From positions 1 to 64,000 of the forward strand of contig NZ_JAMBLT010000004.1 of assembly GCF_023336895.1 (NCBI RefSeq): a stretch of 64,000 nt of DNA. The letters run 5' to 3'. Shown here piece by piece: positions 2,129 through 51,971 of this stretch. The notes beneath the pieces were generated by a model, which saw nothing but the letters and a program-made list of their open reading frames with translations, did not search any database and was not told the origin of the DNA. The position numbers and the translations under genes were made by a program. Each line of letters opens with the position of its first letter. Position 1 is the first letter of the stretch. The stretch comes from Parasutterella secunda (lineage in GTDB: Bacteria; Pseudomonadota; Gammaproteobacteria; Burkholderiales; Burkholderiaceae_F).

Positions 2129-2247
2129 ATCCGTCCTTTCTGTAAGGGCGGGAACCTCGATCTCGAAAACTGTTAGGCAGAGATCTGAAGCCCACAAGAG
2201 TTGTAAAGAGAGCGCCAAAATTTGACGCACGTCGAGTATTGTACGGG

Positions 2248-2877
2248 TTATCCCTGTATTTTTTCAATAAGCAAACCACCTGATGTTTTTTCAGTGAGGG
2301 TGTTAATCAGGTTTTCTGCTTGTGACTGCGGAACTGAAACCGTGAAGGTGGCATCCATTGCGAAGTCTTTTTCGAGAATTCTTGCCTGATGGTTTTCAAA
2401 TTCTCGAAGGGCAATATTGACAAAAGGATGTTCCAGTGTGAATTTCAAAAGATCGGATGGAACGCGTTCGGTTACTGGAAGAGTTTCCAATCCTAACTTA
2501 ACCAATCCCTGATAGGCACGAACCAAACCGCCTGTTCCCAGCAAAATGCCGCCGAAATAGCGGGTGACAACCGCAGCGATCTCTCCCACCCCGCAATGAA
2601 GCAAGACGGTAAGCATTGGGCGACCTGCCGTACCTTTCGGTTCTCCGTCGTCACTGGCACCGATTTGAGCCGTACTGCCAGGTTCGCCTGCCACGTACGC
2701 CCAACAATTGTGAGTTGCCTGGTCGTGCTCGGCTCGGATAGAGTCGATAAATGCCTTAGCTTCTTCTGGAGAACTCACTCGAGCCATTGTCACGATGAAA
2801 CGTGAGCGGTGAATCGTTTCTTCCGCCCGGTGAATTTCTCCGGCCGCAAGGTTCGGAACGTTATAACGGTCAGCCAT
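2248..2877 (-). CDS. yigZ: IMPACT-family protein YigZ
   Basis: A 209-residue protein of the YigZ/IMPACT (UPF0029) family. The N-terminal domain carries the family core: THNCWAYV near residue 55, [15 protein letters not shown] near 75-90 and [20 protein letters not shown] near 105-125. The C-terminal third matches the DUF1949-type domain. Relatives bind nucleic acid or interact with translation factors, but the exact bacterial role is not settled. It is flanked by terminators or gene ends and looks monocistronic. Confidence 0.88.
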
Positions 2878-2884
2878 TGTCTAT

Positions 2885-2923
2885 GCAAGAAATGGCCCGG
2901 GAAAGAGTAATCCTTCTCGGGCC
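2885..2923 (-). terminator. Terminator of groESL
   Basis: A GGCCCG...CGGGCC hairpin with an interior GAA/TTC extension on the minus strand, just past the groEL stop and followed by ATTTCTTG. The T-tract is modest. Confidence 0.65.
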
Positions 2924-2951
2924 AGGTATCAGATCATTCGGTTGATACCGA

Positions 2952-4589
<1,638 letters not shown>

Positions 4590-44370: not shown

Positions 44371-45882
44371 ATGAAATCGAATACTCCTACATTTGTCATC
44401 GAGTTGCCGCTGTGTGTGAACGATCAGCAAAATCGTTTTCTCACTCAGGCATTCGAGCTTGGGCGGACGTTGTATAACGCCACGCTCGGCTCCGCTTTAG
44501 GCAGACTCCAACGAATGCGGGAGAGTCTGCCGTGGCGCCAAACGCGTTCAATGCCCCAAGGCAAAGAACGCAGCAAACGCTTTTCCGATCTGCAAAAAGC
44601 CTATGGTTTAACCGAAAACGGTCTAAGAACAATAGCAAATAACCACCGCAAGGCCAGCGGTCGCAACGACATCGGGGCTCACGAAGCCCAGTGTGTCGGA
44701 CGAACTGTTTGGCGCGCGTTGGAGCGCTACATGTTCTTAGGTGCCGGTAAACCACGCTTTAAGTCCTATCGTCAAGGACTCAATTCCATTGAAGGAACGG
44801 ATAATCGCGAAATCATGTTCAAGCCTGACCGCCAATCAATTGTTTGGCGCAAACAGGTCATGAAACTAATGATTCCAGATACCTCCTACTTCAAGGAAGC
44901 CTTGGCCGATCCTATCGAGCCGACTCAAACCAAACGCATTAAGTATTGCCGTATTGCCCGTCGGACACTCAACGGTAAGAAGCGTTGGTTCGCGCAAATC
45001 TGTCTGGAAGGGATGCCCCCGGTTAGAAAGATCTACGCGCCGAAGTCGGAAGTGATGGGAATAGATCCAGGACCAAGCGGCTTGGCTTATTTCCATCCGC
45101 AGAAAGCGGGACTTGTTCGGGTAGCGCCGAATGTGGATATGCAGGAAAAAGCGATCCGCCGATTGCAGTGCAAAATCGACCGATCCAGACGGGCGAACAA
45201 TCCTGATCATTTCAATGCGGACGGGACGGCGAAGCCGTCTCCGACGTCTTGGAAGATCAGTCGTCGGATGGAAAAACTCCAAGTAAAGTTGGCTGAACAC
45301 CATCGGTGTTTGGCGGCCACGCGCAAGCGTGATCACGGGGAGCTGGCGAATTTTCTGCTGCAACGAGCAGGCACGATCAAGATCGAAAAGAACAGTTACC
45401 GTTCGTATCAACGAAACTTTGGGAAATCAACGACAAGGACAGGCATGGGAACGTTTGTCAGTCACTTGAAGCGTTCGGCTGAAAGAGCTAACAGTCAAGT
45501 GATTGAATTAAACGCCTATGAGCTGAAATTGTCGCAATACGATCCTGCCACGGACACGTACCGAAAGAAGGCGTTGAAAGAGCGGTGGCATCGCTGGGGC
45601 GAGACAGACATTCTGGTTCAAAGGGATGTGATGTCAGCGTTCTTAGCGTGCCATGTGACGGAAAAAGGGCATGACCGAACCCGCTTGTTAAACGAGTGGG
45701 CGACTGCGGAAGCGCTGTTGAGCGATAGCGGTCTATGCCGACATGAACTTCGTAACGATCAAGGAACGTCGAAAGAGGTTCCGAGACTCACGAGTCCGGA
45801 GGTTGAAAAGCCGAAGGAGCGGGTAAGGAGTTTATCGCGAACACTTTGTGCAAAAAGTGACGTCAAGCCGAGCGCTGCGTGA
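44371..45882 (+). CDS. TnpB-like protein with intact RuvC triad but no zinc ribbon
   Basis: A 503-residue protein of the IS605 OrfB/TnpB type, associated with RNA-guided DNA cleavage. RuvC residues are in order: D232 in GIDPGPSGLAY, E339 in IKIEKNSYRS and D419 in VQRDVMSAFLA. The region between E and D, where TnpB normally has two CxxC pairs (SQxCSxCG), reads LSQYDPATDTYRKKALKERWHR with no cysteine. A helical N-terminal region and basic stretches resemble the REC and wedge parts. The C-terminal 80 residues are poorly conserved and may mainly encode an omega-like RNA. Nuclease activity is untested; a regulatory role is possible. Confidence 0.85.
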   Translation: MKSNTPTFVIELPLCVNDQQNRFLTQAFELGRTLYNATLGSALGRLQRMRESLPWRQTRSMPQGKERSKRFSDLQKAYGLTENGLRTIANNHRKASGRNDIGAHEAQCVGRTVWRALERYMFLGAGKPRFKSYRQGLNSIEGTDNREIMFKPDRQSIVWRKQVMKLMIPDTSYFKEALADPIEPTQTKRIKYCRIARRTLNGKKRWFAQICLEGMPPVRKIYAPKSEVMGIDPGPSGLAYFHPQKAGLVRVAPNVDMQEKAIRRLQCKIDRSRRANNPDHFNADGTAKPSPTSWKISRRMEKLQVKLAEHHRCLAATRKRDHGELANFLLQRAGTIKIEKNSYRSYQRNFGKSTTRTGMGTFVSHLKRSAERANSQVIELNAYELKLSQYDPATDTYRKKALKERWHRWGETDILVQRDVMSAFLACHVTEKGHDRTRLLNEWATAEALLSDSGLCRHELRNDQGTSKEVPRLTSPEVEKPKERVRSLSRTLCAKSDVKPSAA

Positions 45883-45950: not shown

Positions 45951-46770
45951 GTTTCGATGAATGTACACGCTGTTGAAGTAGATCATCGAAGCGAAAAACG
46001 CCTGATTGCCGGGTTTCACGCTCTGTATTCACTGGGAAGCATGGTTGGCGCTTTAGCGATGGCAACTCTTCTCAATGTCGGGATTGAATTACTTTATGCC
46101 GCAGGCGTTTGGCTGCTGATTTGTATCATTATTTGGGGATTCTCGGTCAATTCCCTTCTACCTGACGCAGGCAAAGCTCAAGGTGTATCCCAATCTTTTG
46201 TTTGGCCAAGAGGTTTCGTGCTTTGGTTGGGATTGATTTGTTTTTTTGCTTTTTATGGTAGAAGGGGCGGTGCTTGACTGGGGTGGTGTTTTCTTGGTCG
46301 AAGAAAAGTCGGCTGTGATTGAAAACGCTGGTTTTGCCTTTGCAGCTTTCTCTACGGCCATGACCCTCATGCGTCTCATTAGCGACAAATTAATTGCGTA
46401 TGCAGGTCCCAGAAATTGTGTGCGATATGGTTGTCTGATTGGCGCTCTCATGTTAACGGGATGTGTCCTATTGCCTCACATTTGGCTTGTTGTCATACTC
46501 TTTTTTGCGTTGGGACTAGGATTAGCCAACGTCATTCCGATTGCCTTTGCCAGTACAGCGGATCAAAACGAAATGCTAATGAGTTTGGCGCTTGCTGCTG
46601 TGACAACTTTAGGTTATGCAGGACTTTTGACAGGCCCGGCACTTATTGGATTCATCGCAAAAGTCACCAGTCTTTCTACTGCCTTATTAATGCTTGCGGC
46701 CTTTTTGGTAATTGTGTCTTTTTCGAGTAATATTTTTCGACAAAAAGTAGATTTTTGGAGATGGCAATGA
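45950..46770 (+). pseudogene. MFS transporter remnant, truncated and frameshifted
   Basis: The reading VSMNVHAVEVDHRSEKRLIAGFHALYSLG matches the middle of YbjJ-like MFS transporters; about the first 110-120 residues are missing and replaced by the TnpB element. The frame breaks near 46258, where an extra T in a GCTTTTTATG run turns ...CFFAFMVEGAVLDWGG into a stop at 46277. It resumes to a natural end at 46770. The last six or so transmembrane segments are still readable. The upstream half is not elsewhere in the window. Confidence 0.85.
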
Positions 46771-47470: not shown

Positions 47471-47863
47471 CTAACGAATTTGTCCCTGATAACGACCGGT
47501 GTTGTCATAAAAGCGACCGTTGGTGTCTTCTCGACCTAAATATCTGCCGGAGTGGTCATAGTGGCGACCGTCGGCATCGATTCGTCCCTGGTAGCGTCCG
47601 GAGCTGTCGTAAATTCGTCCGGAAGAATCCATACGTCCCTGATAGCGACCGCTGCTGTCATAGCGGCGGCCATTAGCATCCACTTTTCCTTGATATCGAC
47701 CGCTATGATCATAAAGGCGACCGTTGTCGATACGTCCTTCGTAACGGCCGCTATCGTCATAATAACGACCGTTATGATGGTTGTAGCCATAATGGTGGGC
47801 AAAGGCGACACTTGTCAGAAATGAACTGATAAAAACAAAGGCAAATAGAAAAATCTTTCGCAT
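47471..47863 (-). CDS. Secreted tandem-repeat protein (six GRxYDxSGRYxG repeats)
   Basis: A 130-residue protein: signal peptide (about 1-22, ending AFA), then six 16-17-residue repeats of consensus NGRxYDxSGRYQGRxDx filling the rest. Every unit keeps G-R-x-Y-D and S/T-G-R-Y; variable positions are mainly the residue after GR and before D. The charge is high in Arg and Asp, without cysteine. I recognise no domain. It may bind a metal, glycan or the cell wall; this is not shown. No clear ribosome-binding site was sought beyond the ATG at 47863. Confidence 0.85.
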   Translation of the reverse strand: MRKIFLFAFVFISSFLTSVAFAHHYGYNHHNGRYYDDSGRYEGRIDNGRLYDHSGRYQGKVDANGRRYDSSGRYQGRMDSSGRIYDSSGRYQGRIDADGRHYDHSGRYLGREDTNGRFYDNTGRYQGQIR

Positions 47864-47919: not shown

Positions 47920-47954
47920 GAAAAAAGCCGAAAAACATTTCAGTCTTTCGGCTT
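47920..47954 (-). terminator. Terminator of hemL
   Basis: A 9-bp stem AAGCCGAAA / TTTCGGCTT followed by TTTTTTC on the minus strand. Confidence 0.88.
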
Positions 47955-47975: not shown

Positions 47976-49262
47976 TTAAATACTGGCCACTTTTTCAAAG
48001 GCCACCTTAGCTGCTTTAACGGTTTCGTCAATCACCTCATCACTATGGGTGATGGAAACAAAACCTGCTTCAAAAACAGAAGGTGCGAAATAAACCCCTT
48101 GATCCAACATGCTATGGAAGAACACATTGAAGCGTTTGGTGTCAGACTTCATTACGTCTGCAAAACCTTCGGGACACTTATCCAAGAAATAAAGTCCGAA
48201 CATACCACCGACACTTCGAGCCGAGAAGGTTACGCCGACTTGGTTGGCAGCAGCTTTCAAACCTTCAATTAAACGAGATGTCTGAGCAGAGAGCCGATCG
48301 TAGAAACCCGGCTGTTGAATAAGTTTCAAAGTGGCTAGGCCGCACGCAACTGCAACAGGGTTCCCGGAGAGTGTGCCAGCCTGATAGACGGGACCGCAGG
48401 GGGCAATCTTTTCCATGACATCGCGTCTGCCGCCAAAGGCTGCCACGGGCATGCCGCCGCCAATGACTTTACCAAACATTGTGATATCAGGAGTCACGTT
48501 GTAGAGACTTTGAGCTCCGCCCAATGCGACTCTAAAGCCAGTCATGACCTCATCGACAATCAAGAGCGCACCGTATTGAGTACAAAGCTTGCGCATGGTT
48601 TGAATGAATTCCGGTTTGCCCGGAACCATATTCATATTGCCGGCTACCGCCTCCACGATTACACAGGCGATGTCGTCTCCGTAACGCTTAAAAGCATCTT
48701 CAAGCTGAGAGGGATTGTTGTATTCGAGAACAAGCGTGTGTTCCGTTACACCGGTGGGAACGCCCGCAGAACTCGGGTTGCCGAACGTGAGCATACCGGA
48801 GCCGGCTTTTACCAAAAGGCTATCGCTGTGGCCGTGGTAGCAACCCTCAAATTTAATAATCTTATTGCGTCCCGTAAAGCCGCGTGCAAGGCGAATGGCG
48901 CTCATGCCCGCTTCAGTGCCAGAACTTACTAAACGCACTTCCTCAATAGAGGGAATTAATTTTTTAATTTCTTCGGCAATTAAAATTTCTCGTTGGGTAG
49001 CGCAGCCGAATGTCAGGCCCATATCGACGGCTTCGTGTACGGCTTTAATGACTTCGGGGTTGTTGTGTCCCAAAATCATGGGGCCCCATGATCCGATGTA
49101 ATCAATGTAGCGTTTGCCGTCCTCGTCCCACATGTAGGGACCCTGGGCTTTTTTCATAAATCGGGGAGAACCGCCGACTGAGCCAAAGGCTCTGACGGGA
49201 GAATTCACGCCGCCCGGAATGCTTTGACGGGCGCGTTCAAATAATGAATCATTCGTATCCAT
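47976..49262 (-). CDS. hemL: Glutamate-1-semialdehyde 2,1-aminomutase
   Basis: Converts glutamate-1-semialdehyde to 5-aminolevulinate in the C5 haem pathway, using PLP. 428 residues. Landmarks: [18 protein letters not shown] near the N-terminus, [20 protein letters not shown] near 115, [12 protein letters not shown] near 240 and the Schiff-base lysine in [16 protein letters not shown] near 265. AAGGATT precedes the ATG. The following PagP-OmpW gene lies nine bases upstream of it on the same strand, so readthrough is likely. Confidence 0.97.
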
Positions 49263-49271
49263 TTTTAATCC

Positions 49272-50429
49272 TTAAAAGGCGTAACCCACACCTAAGTTAA
49301 AGCTCGTGTTGGCAGGCTTGAAACGTCCGTCAAGGGCTTCGTTTTCATTAATTTCCACATTGTGGAAGTGCGGGAAGTTAACGGTCATGTCACCCATTAC
49401 ACGCAGATGATCCGTAACCGCCCAGGTAAAGCCCGTTTGAACAACAGGATTGATGCTGTGTTCTTTGTAGTCACCGCCGTCTTTTGCTTTCAATTCAGAA
49501 TAAGCAGCACCGGCGCCGACATGCATGCGCATGGCATCCAACACTTCAAAGTGGTACTGAAGCATTAAGTTGGTATTGGTCAGGCGGTATTTATTAACCG
49601 TTTTACCCGGAGCATTTAAATCATGTTCGCTTCTTTGATAGCTTAAATCCCAAGCCCAGTGGCGATCCATGAAATGGCGAATACCAAACTTATAGCCGGA
49701 GTCGGAGTCTAATGTGAATCCGCCCGGCACGTCGCCGCCTCCGTCAGAGAGGTCCGTTTTTACCCAAGAGCCCTGTGCGTAAAGTTCGGTTGTGTTAGAC
49801 CACGCTGATGCAACACTATCGGGCCACGGGGAGAAGCGTCGAGACTGATCGTCAAATTCAATCTTGGAGAAGAAGAAAAAGACGTTAGAAACCGGAATGT
49901 ACGTGGCGTACACATTAAACCAATCAGTGCCGGCACTGACAAGAGGAAGCGGAACTGGAATCGGCAACCAGTTGTAGTCTTGACGGAAGGTTAGACCGGC
50001 AGTGTAACCCGCTCCCAAATGAAAGCCGGAATTGGCAATGGGAAAACGGGCGACCCAAGCGTAGCCCATAATGGGTTCAAACTCATAATGGGAATCGCGG
50101 AAAAGCATCATATACATTAAGCGTTCATTACCGTGTTCATCGATGATGCCTCGGGAAATACCAGCCCCAAACGGATAGGCGTTTTCTTCATCACGGTTGT
50201 CGTAGTCCCAGCGGGGATGATTGGTATAGGCCGGAACTAAAAGACCAGTACGACCGTGTTCGATAATGTCATGCATACCATTTAACTGATTGCCGACAAA
50301 GCCTGCGTCCGGATAGGGGGAGACAGCACCGGGAAGGGTTTCGACGAAACTGTCGAGAAAGCCGGCATGAGCGGCAACAGCGGCCAGGGAGAGTGAAGTG
50401 GCCAATGCAATTTTTTTCAATGAGGGCAC
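49272..50429 (-). CDS. PagP-OmpW fusion outer-membrane protein
   Basis: A 385-residue outer-membrane protein in two barrels. Signal peptide about 1-22. Residues about 45-193 match lipid A palmitoyltransferase PagP: catalytic residues H71 (NHPRW), D112 and S113 (LFRDSHYEFEPI) are present, with GYTAGLTFRQDYNWLPIPVPLPLVS and the final TYIP strand. Residues about 215-385 match OmpW-type eight-strand barrels, ending in the Phe terminus VGYAF. Start GTG at 50429 with AAAGGAG six bases upstream. It probably modifies lipid A, with the second barrel of unknown role. Confidence 0.88.
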   Translation of the reverse strand: MPSLKKIALATSLSLAAVAAHAGFLDSFVETLPGAVSPYPDAGFVGNQLNGMHDIIEHGRTGLLVPAYTNHPRWDYDNRDEENAYPFGAGISRGIIDEHGNERLMYMMLFRDSHYEFEPIMGYAWVARFPIANSGFHLGAGYTAGLTFRQDYNWLPIPVPLPLVSAGTDWFNVYATYIPVSNVFFFFSKIEFDDQSRRFSPWPDSVASAWSNTTELYAQGSWVKTDLSDGGGDVPGGFTLDSDSGYKFGIRHFMDRHWAWDLSYQRSEHDLNAPGKTVNKYRLTNTNLMLQYHFEVLDAMRMHVGAGAAYSELKAKDGGDYKEHSINPVVQTGFTWAVTDHLRVMGDMTVNFPHFHNVEINENEALDGRFKPANTSFNLGVGYAF

Positions 50430-50690: not shown

Positions 50691-51971
50691 ATGTCTTTAC
50701 TTGAATGGTTGGCTATAGCTGTTACGATTGTGACGGTTTACGCTTTGATCAAGCGCTATGAAACGCGTTTGGTGCTTTTTACCGCTGGTTTTGTGCTTTG
50801 CTTGGTGTCTTTGGATCCAATCAGTGCCTTGAATTCGTTTGCCAAGTCCATGACCAACAATTCGTTGGTGATGAATATCTGCTCATCGATGGGTTTTGCT
50901 TTTATTGCCAGTTACACCCAATGTGACCGCAGTCTTGTTCACTATTTAGCATCGCCCATCCGCGGTTTGGGTGTTCTCCTGATCCCGATCTGCACGATCG
51001 TGACCTTCTTCATTAACATTGCTCTTCCGTCTGCTGCCGGTTGTGCTGCTGCTGTTGGTTCTACTTTGATTCCGGTGATGTTGCGAGCCGGTATTAAACC
51101 TGCCGCTGCCGCAGCCGCTGTGATGGGCGGTACGATTGGCTCTTTCCTTTCTCCTGGCACATCCCACAATGCGTTCGTAGCAGCTATGGCCAACATCGAA
51201 GTCATGGAATTCATTGGCTTCCATGCTGTATGGTCTATTATTTCCGCATCGATCGTTGTTGTCGGTATCCTTCTGGTTTGCCTGGTTTTGGGAGACCATA
51301 AGGGTAGCAAGACTGAGACAGCTCAAGCTGTTGCTCAAACGGATGATGACGGCTTTAAGCCCAGTGTTCTAAAGGCAATCATGACGCTCATCCCGATCAC
51401 GATCCTCGTTGTTGGTAACGTTTGGGTTCCCGCTATCAAGATGGGTGTGGCTCAAGCCATGGTCTTGGGTGCCGTCATTACTTTGTTGGTCGCTTATGCT
51501 ATGGACCGTACCAATCCTCAAGAATTCTCCAAGAAATTCTTCAACGGTATGGGTCAAGGATACGCTGATGTGATGGGTATCATCATCGCCGCTGGTGTGT
51601 TCGCTGCCGGTTTGCGTGCTACCGGTTTGATTGATACGTTCGTTGACGTATTGAAGCATTCAAATGACATCGCCCGTTGGGGCGGTTCCCTTGGTCCGTG
51701 GATCATGGGTACGATTACTGGTTCCGGTGACGCTGCCACGATGGCCTTCAACGAAGCTGTGACGCCGCATGCTCCTGAATTTGGCATGGAAGTTAAAGCT
51801 CTAGGTGCCCTAGCCTTCTTAACGGGTGCTTTGGGTCGTACGATGAGTCCGATCGCTGGTGCTATGGTTGTTGTCGCCGGTATCGCTATGGCTAATCCGA
51901 TGGACGTCGTCAAACGCACCGCACCGGGTTGCACGATTGCTGTTTTCGTATTGGCTTTGTTTATGGTCTAG
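50691..51971 (+). CDS. DcuC-family C4-dicarboxylate carrier (second copy)
   Basis: A 426-residue inner-membrane carrier with about 11 hydrophobic segments. The segments NIALPSAAGCAAAVGSTLIPVMLRAG and MGGTIGSFLSPGTSHNAF, then GSGDAATMAFNEAVTPHAPEFGM and LGRTMSPIAGAMVVVAGIA, follow the DcuC family but differ from the copy at 24488-25867. GAAAGGAA precedes the ATG. C4-dicarboxylate exchange or efflux is likely. Its codon use appears strongly biased, suggesting high expression, but this was not computed. Confidence 0.85.
   Translation: MSLLEWLAIAVTIVTVYALIKRYETRLVLFTAGFVLCLVSLDPISALNSFAKSMTNNSLVMNICSSMGFAFIASYTQCDRSLVHYLASPIRGLGVLLIPICTIVTFFINIALPSAAGCAAAVGSTLIPVMLRAGIKPAAAAAAVMGGTIGSFLSPGTSHNAFVAAMANIEVMEFIGFHAVWSIISASIVVVGILLVCLVLGDHKGSKTETAQAVAQTDDDGFKPSVLKAIMTLIPITILVVGNVWVPAIKMGVAQAMVLGAVITLLVAYAMDRTNPQEFSKKFFNGMGQGYADVMGIIIAAGVFAAGLRATGLIDTFVDVLKHSNDIARWGGSLGPWIMGTITGSGDAATMAFNEAVTPHAPEFGMEVKALGALAFLTGALGRTMSPIAGAMVVVAGIAMANPMDVVKRTAPGCTIAVFVLALFMV

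Follow-up and report, generated by a model that had tools for sequence, protein, structure and literature searches.

By altering lipid A, PagP, a model enzyme of the outer membrane, changes the signal that the cell surface presents to the immune system. In E. coli PagP, the catalytic residues are His33, Asp76, and Ser77, Gly88 is the acyl-chain ruler residue, and prolines mark the substrate gates. PMC7617971 reports that, in proteoliposomes, OmpA and a truncated OmpA barrel at approximately 1:1 cut E. coli PagP activity to ~35% and ~45%, respectively, that OmpX did not lower this activity, and that AlphaFold2 did not predict a complex of OmpA and PagP with confidence. For OmpW, PMC2993939 describes a lateral opening lined by prolines 69, 94, and, less strictly, 95 of OprG, and proposes lateral diffusion as the OmpW mode of action. 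Multibarrel outer-membrane proteins are already known from Solan et al. (2021), as described in PMC8592465, which also discusses GfcD. Among the matches listed in the open-licence literature, a scope outside which the survey of Solan et al. falls, PagP occurs in engineered fusion tags, and no naturally fused PagP appears.

Here we analyzed a 64,000-nucleotide stretch of DNA (the window) from Parasutterella secunda, a member of the Sutterellaceae, in which a preliminary description made from the sequence had noted a single chain that joins a PagP barrel to an OmpW-like barrel. We consider it probable that this chain is a functional PagP-type acyltransferase of the outer membrane carrying, in the same polypeptide, a former OmpW barrel that serves as a structural anchor or as a regulator in cis.

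The fusion gene and its distribution

An uninterrupted frame occupies positions 49272-50429 on the minus strand, with a GTG start at 50429, the sequence AAGGAG just upstream as ribosome-binding site, and a stop codon at 49272-49274. The gene and the parts of the protein that it encodes are as follows.

49272..50429, minus strand: pagP-barrel fusion gene, 385 codons plus stop, GTG start
50361..50429, minus strand: predicted signal peptide, residues 1-23, with the AHA/G boundary assigned by eye
50256..50303, minus strand: N-terminal helix of PagP, residues 43-58, from the AlphaFold2 model and alignments
49854..50252, minus strand: PagP eight-stranded barrel, residues 60-192, from Pfam, PDB match, alignment, and model (3gp6)
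49791..49853, minus strand: periplasmic linker, residues 193-213, with two short helices in the model and without a second signal peptide
49275..49790, minus strand: second eight-stranded barrel, of OmpW descent, residues 214-385, with terminal Phe, from Pfam, model, and descent

An AlphaFold2 model of the full chain, built on 34 fusion homologues (pLDDT 87.2, pTM 0.83), places a helix at residues 43-58, eight strands within residues 60-192, two short helices in the linker, and eight strands within residues 214-384; the second barrel modelled alone also forms a complete eight-stranded barrel, with a pTM equal to the 0.83 of the full chain. The side-by-side placement of the barrels in this model was judged from pTM only. 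The structure prediction proposed in the preliminary description thus gave two barrels, both complete, in a single 385-codon frame, and the fusion is predicted on this model to be a multibarrel outer-membrane protein, with two complete barrels in one chain. It resembles in this respect the proteins of Solan et al. (2021) and GfcD, as presented in PMC8592465, and differs from them in that one of its barrels is an enzyme of known type.

Separate initiation of the second barrel was considered and rejected; start-type codons within codons 151-260 lie at 155, 173, 234, and 254, none of them in the linker, and by eye none precedes a signal-peptide-like stretch. Joining of two genes by a frameshift or an assembly error, which the preliminary description had named as a possible cause, is ruled out, since 39 genomes carry a total of 40 fused frames that are intact. 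The fusion is genuine, and the family conserves it.

For the family, taken as the Sutterellaceae by its named members, 67 genomes were searched for PagP. PagP was present in 40 of these genomes, in 41 copies, comprising the 40 intact fusions (39 genomes) and one copy with an in-frame stop (G816); hence all intact PagP copies in the family are fused (40/41 copies; 39/40 PagP-bearing genomes). The other 27 of the 67 genomes gave no PagP match, which indicates that the fusion protein is dispensable. The P. secunda genome carries a single copy, and one further genome (G815) was observed to carry the fusion gene twice in tandem (L133:715-1863 and 2146-3294). Named fusion loci come from Parasutterella secunda, Candidatus Aphodousia species, and a Sutterella MAG, all in the genus of the window, and a whole-protein pattern scan of the genome collection, which finds close relatives only, returned six loci, again all in this genus.

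Outside the family, non-exhaustive samples (order, 399 genomes; phylum, 398; class, 369) included 86 PagP-bearing genomes, none of which showed a fused PagP frame, so that, within this scope, the profile searches suggested in the preliminary description reveal the fusion in no other family. The residues that follow the PagP match number 0-21 in 51 of these genomes and 3-34 in 13 (64/86 measured); the remaining 22 have open frames of at most 293 residues, too short for the fusion, and include some fragments. For these counts, a 151-residue extension at L040 was treated as spurious (20 residues aligned; actual frame 207 residues) and set aside from the 0-21 range, L094 was scored on the neighboring copy of the same pair and is not an independent row, and L180 was left out of the 13-genome measurement. 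Alignments of the fusions kept 34 of 42 references; L131 and L132, which repeat L029 and L035, were left out, as were L020, L023, L030, L130, the second L133 copy, and L096, each near-identical or a repeat.

Distance matrices of the two halves of the 40 proteins are strongly correlated (Mantel r 0.88; 0 of 2000 permutations as high), and the halves share one history, which a single ancient fusion would predict. In a comparison of seven congeners, dN is 0.05-0.18 for the PagP half and 0.08-0.31 for the second barrel, and dN/dS, where computable (4 of 6 pairs for each half; dS saturated), is 0.02-0.13 and 0.04-0.09, respectively; both halves look constrained, with the second barrel evolving faster.

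The PagP half, export, and folding

The Pfam PagP profile (PF07017) matches residues 53-188 of the fusion with E 2.1e-33, covering profile positions 3-143 of 144, and PDB chain 1mm4 matches with E 6.4e-25. In the 1mm4 alignment, H71 falls on the single His of E. coli PagP and D112/S113 on its Asp-Ser pair; all three residues, which the preliminary description had assigned as catalytic, are invariant in the 40 fusions, and the same His, Asp, and Ser occur in 47, 46, and 48, respectively, of the 48 stand-alone PagPs of the samples (seven divergent PagP-like proteins being tallied apart). Other PagP residues are kept as well, namely Arg149 (40/40), Pro162 (40/40), and Pro179 (38/40), which by our count correspond to E. 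coli Arg114, Pro127, and Pro144. The half thus shares with E. coli PagP (1thq, 3gp6) the N-terminal helix, the eight-stranded barrel, the His/Asp-Ser triad, and prolines at the presumed substrate-gate positions; residues 26-193 of the model superimpose on 3gp6 with Z 19.5 (149 residues aligned, 3.0 Å, 35% identity in the structural alignment). Unlike PagP, the fusion carries approximately 190 extra residues that form the second barrel, where stand-alone PagPs have 0-34 after the match, and it scores 124.2 bits against the NCBIfam PagP equivalog, below the cut-off of 155, so it is a member of the PagP family that is not called an equivalog. LpxC is encoded in the P. secunda genome, which indicates that a lipid A pathway exists there.

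One position departs from the pattern of stand-alone PagPs. The column of E. coli Gly88 holds A16 S10 G8 Q4 T2 in the fusions versus G29 A17 N1 V1 in stand-alone PagPs, and since this column, presumably that of the acyl-chain ruler, differs, acyl selectivity may have shifted; the change hints at altered acyl-chain length or selectivity. The same difference could be read as a sign that the PagP half has lost its catalytic activity or uses a different lipid, with the protein mainly structural or a surface component; however, the full retention of His, Asp, and Ser (40/40) together with the invariance of Arg149 and Pro162 makes this reading highly unlikely.

The signal-peptide region shows a mean hydropathy peak of 1.9 in residues 1-25. 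By contrast, the hydropathy peak of the linker is -0.04, and since a second signal peptide is missing, separate export of the second barrel is unlikely. Cleavage of the chain after export, with the two barrels acting apart and the fusion merely setting their stoichiometry, might be suspected because linker residues 193-213 are more variable than the barrels and form the only long stretch between them. The linker, however, hardly varies in length (31/40 fusions have 18 residues between columns 193 and 214), P201 is conserved at 90% or more, and the model gives the linker short helices, features that argue against cleavage and leave such processing, in our assessment, an improbable account of the protein.

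The aromatic residue at the end of PagP's own last strand is present in 11/40 fusions versus 35/48 stand-alone PagPs (Fisher p 3.5e-5, a value that ignores kinship), and Phe is the last residue of the chain, at the end of the second barrel, in 40/40 fusions. A relaxed PagP aromatic combined with an invariant final Phe fits a folding signal that moved from PagP to the end of the second barrel. We envision that the chain, having one signal peptide, would be exported once, that BAM would fold the two barrels in turn, guided mainly by the invariant C-terminal Phe, and that the barrels would come to lie side by side in the outer membrane, where the PagP half would acylate lipid A with a chain taken from phospholipid. 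The linker of approximately 20 residues has both of its ends on the periplasmic side for barrels of this topology.

Descent of the second barrel and fate of its lateral opening

The general profile PF13505 (OMP_b-brl) matches residues 209-385 with E 1.7e-11. The specific OmpW profile (PF03922) reaches E 0.049 on the whole fusion protein, below the Pfam cut-off, and E 0.011 (16.2 bits; cut-off 24, hence also below) when the second barrel of the window is scanned alone; among homologous second barrels, 21/34 match Pfam OmpW at E 0.1 or better, with a best value of 7e-14. Fold alone does not decide between candidate relatives, as residues 201/210-385 of the model match OmpA (Z 19.8, 166 aligned, 2.5 Å) and OmpW (Z 19.5, 166 aligned, 2.3 Å) in what amounts to a tie by Z, with OprG at Z 18.9. 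Despite this structural closeness to the OmpA transmembrane barrel, the fusion differs from OmpA in that no periplasmic OmpA domain follows the second barrel, and descent as judged from sequence points to OmpW. When sampled genomes of the order outside the family are searched with a profile of the second barrel, 55 of them yield OmpW-like genes, the frames of which mostly span 199-286 residues; all eight stand-alone genes extracted from these match Pfam OmpW (E 7e-31 to 2e-45). Because the nearest stand-alone relatives examined are OmpW in 8/8 cases, we infer that the second barrel descends from OmpW; it shares the eight-stranded fold of the OmpW/OprG/AlkL family, and a QYH motif is common to the fusions and six aligned stand-alone OmpWs. 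It differs from this family in being fused, in having no signal peptide of its own, and in lacking, in the copy of the window, the lateral-opening prolines.

Columns for these prolines were assigned by alignment through a stand-alone OmpW and OprG, which places Pro94 at residue 285 of the protein encoded in the window. A Pro94 equivalent is retained in four of the 40 fusions (L096, L097, L102, and L110), all within a five-member deep branch in which the fifth member, L108, has Ala in this column; none of the 35 fusions outside the branch retains it, and none does in the genus of the window. In the alignment, equivalents of Pro69 and Pro95 are absent from all 40 fusions, with the loss of Pro69 carrying less weight since two of the six stand-alone OmpWs compared also lack it. 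The window's copy thus has neither of the OmpW prolines that line the lateral opening (OprG Pro69 and Pro94). A different proline, in the column of residue 246, occurs in 6/6 Burkholderiales OmpWs compared, in all five deep-branch fusions (L096, L097, L102, L108, and L110, from genomes G010, G040, G030, G019, and G016, respectively), and in 0/35 others. This proline was considered as the counterpart of OprG Pro69 and rejected, as the column holds Leu in OmpW and OprG; it is therefore only a marker shared with Burkholderiales OmpWs. With stand-alone OmpWs serving as outgroup, which sets the direction of the change, the pattern may be read as one fusion with OmpW, after which most of the family, with the genus of the window among them, lost the lateral opening.

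A working OmpW-type channel through which small hydrophobic molecules or acyl donors pass laterally to the active site of PagP would offer another role for the second barrel. The OmpW affiliation of all eight stand-alone relatives speaks for such a channel, as do the lateral diffusion proposed for OmpW in PMC2993939, the four fusions that keep the Pro94 equivalent, and the finding that three of these four, with barrels scanned alone, reach OmpW E values of 3e-8 to 7e-14. Nevertheless, the Pro94 equivalent is gone in 36/40 fusions, those of Pro95 and Pro69 are missing throughout (with the reservation on Pro69 given above), and the window's copy stays below the OmpW cut-off; we thus regard a channel function as unlikely overall. 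For the window's copy in particular it is unsupported, as Pro94 survives in four fusions and not here, and the same holds for an OmpW pore coupled to acyl transfer, a question that the preliminary description had raised. Its label "OmpW-like" is borne out by descent and by a complete, Phe-terminated barrel with eight modelled strands, but not by the Pfam OmpW score or by lateral-opening prolines.

In the reading that we favor, a former OmpW barrel that anchors or regulates PagP in cis, the second barrel would derive from an OmpW protein that was fused once, in the family's ancestor, and would have lost its lateral opening in most lineages, including that of the window. A regulatory role may be suggested by analogy, as it would be comparable in cis with the effect reported in PMC7617971 for OmpA on E. 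coli PagP in trans. A more specific version, in which a regulator that works in trans in other bacteria, an abundant small barrel like OmpA, became fixed in cis, with OmpW fused once, its opening closed, and the resulting control subunit setting PagP activity or acyl choice, seems possible, if somewhat doubtful.

A covalent pairing of PagP with a small barrel throughout a lineage offers a natural construct for studying BAM assembly of two-barrel chains and for asking whether barrel-barrel contacts control an outer-membrane enzyme. Comparison of deep-branch fusions that keep Pro94 with those that have lost it would provide an evolutionary series from channel barrel to partner barrel, in a pairing of PagP with an OmpW-derived barrel found in a bacterial family that includes gut species.

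Gene neighborhood

Two features follow the fusion gene on its strand.

47976..49262, minus strand: hemL-type aminotransferase gene (PF00202), separated by 9 bp from the fusion gene upstream of it
47925..47954, minus strand: terminator-like hairpin that follows hemL and would fit transcription of the fusion gene and hemL as one unit, in a region where the terminator count is not above that of shuffles

Of 20 other fusion loci drawn from the 39 genomes, 16 likewise have hemL next after the fusion gene and in the same orientation, with a gap of 11-18 bp in the three loci of the window's genus and 70-846 bp in the rest; hemL adjoins PagP in 0/20 stand-alone PagP loci, one of which has a weaker aminotransferase match approximately 4 kb away. 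The fusion gene and hemL are likely to be on a shared transcript in the genus of the window. The retention of a tetrapyrrole gene beside an outer-membrane enzyme is an unexplained association. A promoter scan gave 2 sites versus 3.1 expected, and comparison with PHROGs gave nothing informative. A divergent DcuC-type gene upstream (50691-51971) was dropped as a conserved partner, having been found in 0/20 other fusion loci searched.

Beyond hemL lie a gene for a secreted-looking 130-residue protein with YDxSGRYQGxxD repeats (47471-47863, minus strand; Pfam Bflower_2) and, on the plus strand, an MFS transporter gene (45957-46770; PF07690 on 46246-46770) that is apparently split into overlapping frames (45957-46277 and 46246-46770) and possibly broken. 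Farther along, a 503-residue ORF at 44371-45882 (plus strand), without a Pfam match at E 0.001, resembles by eye a TnpB/RuvC-like nuclease (MGIDPGPSG).
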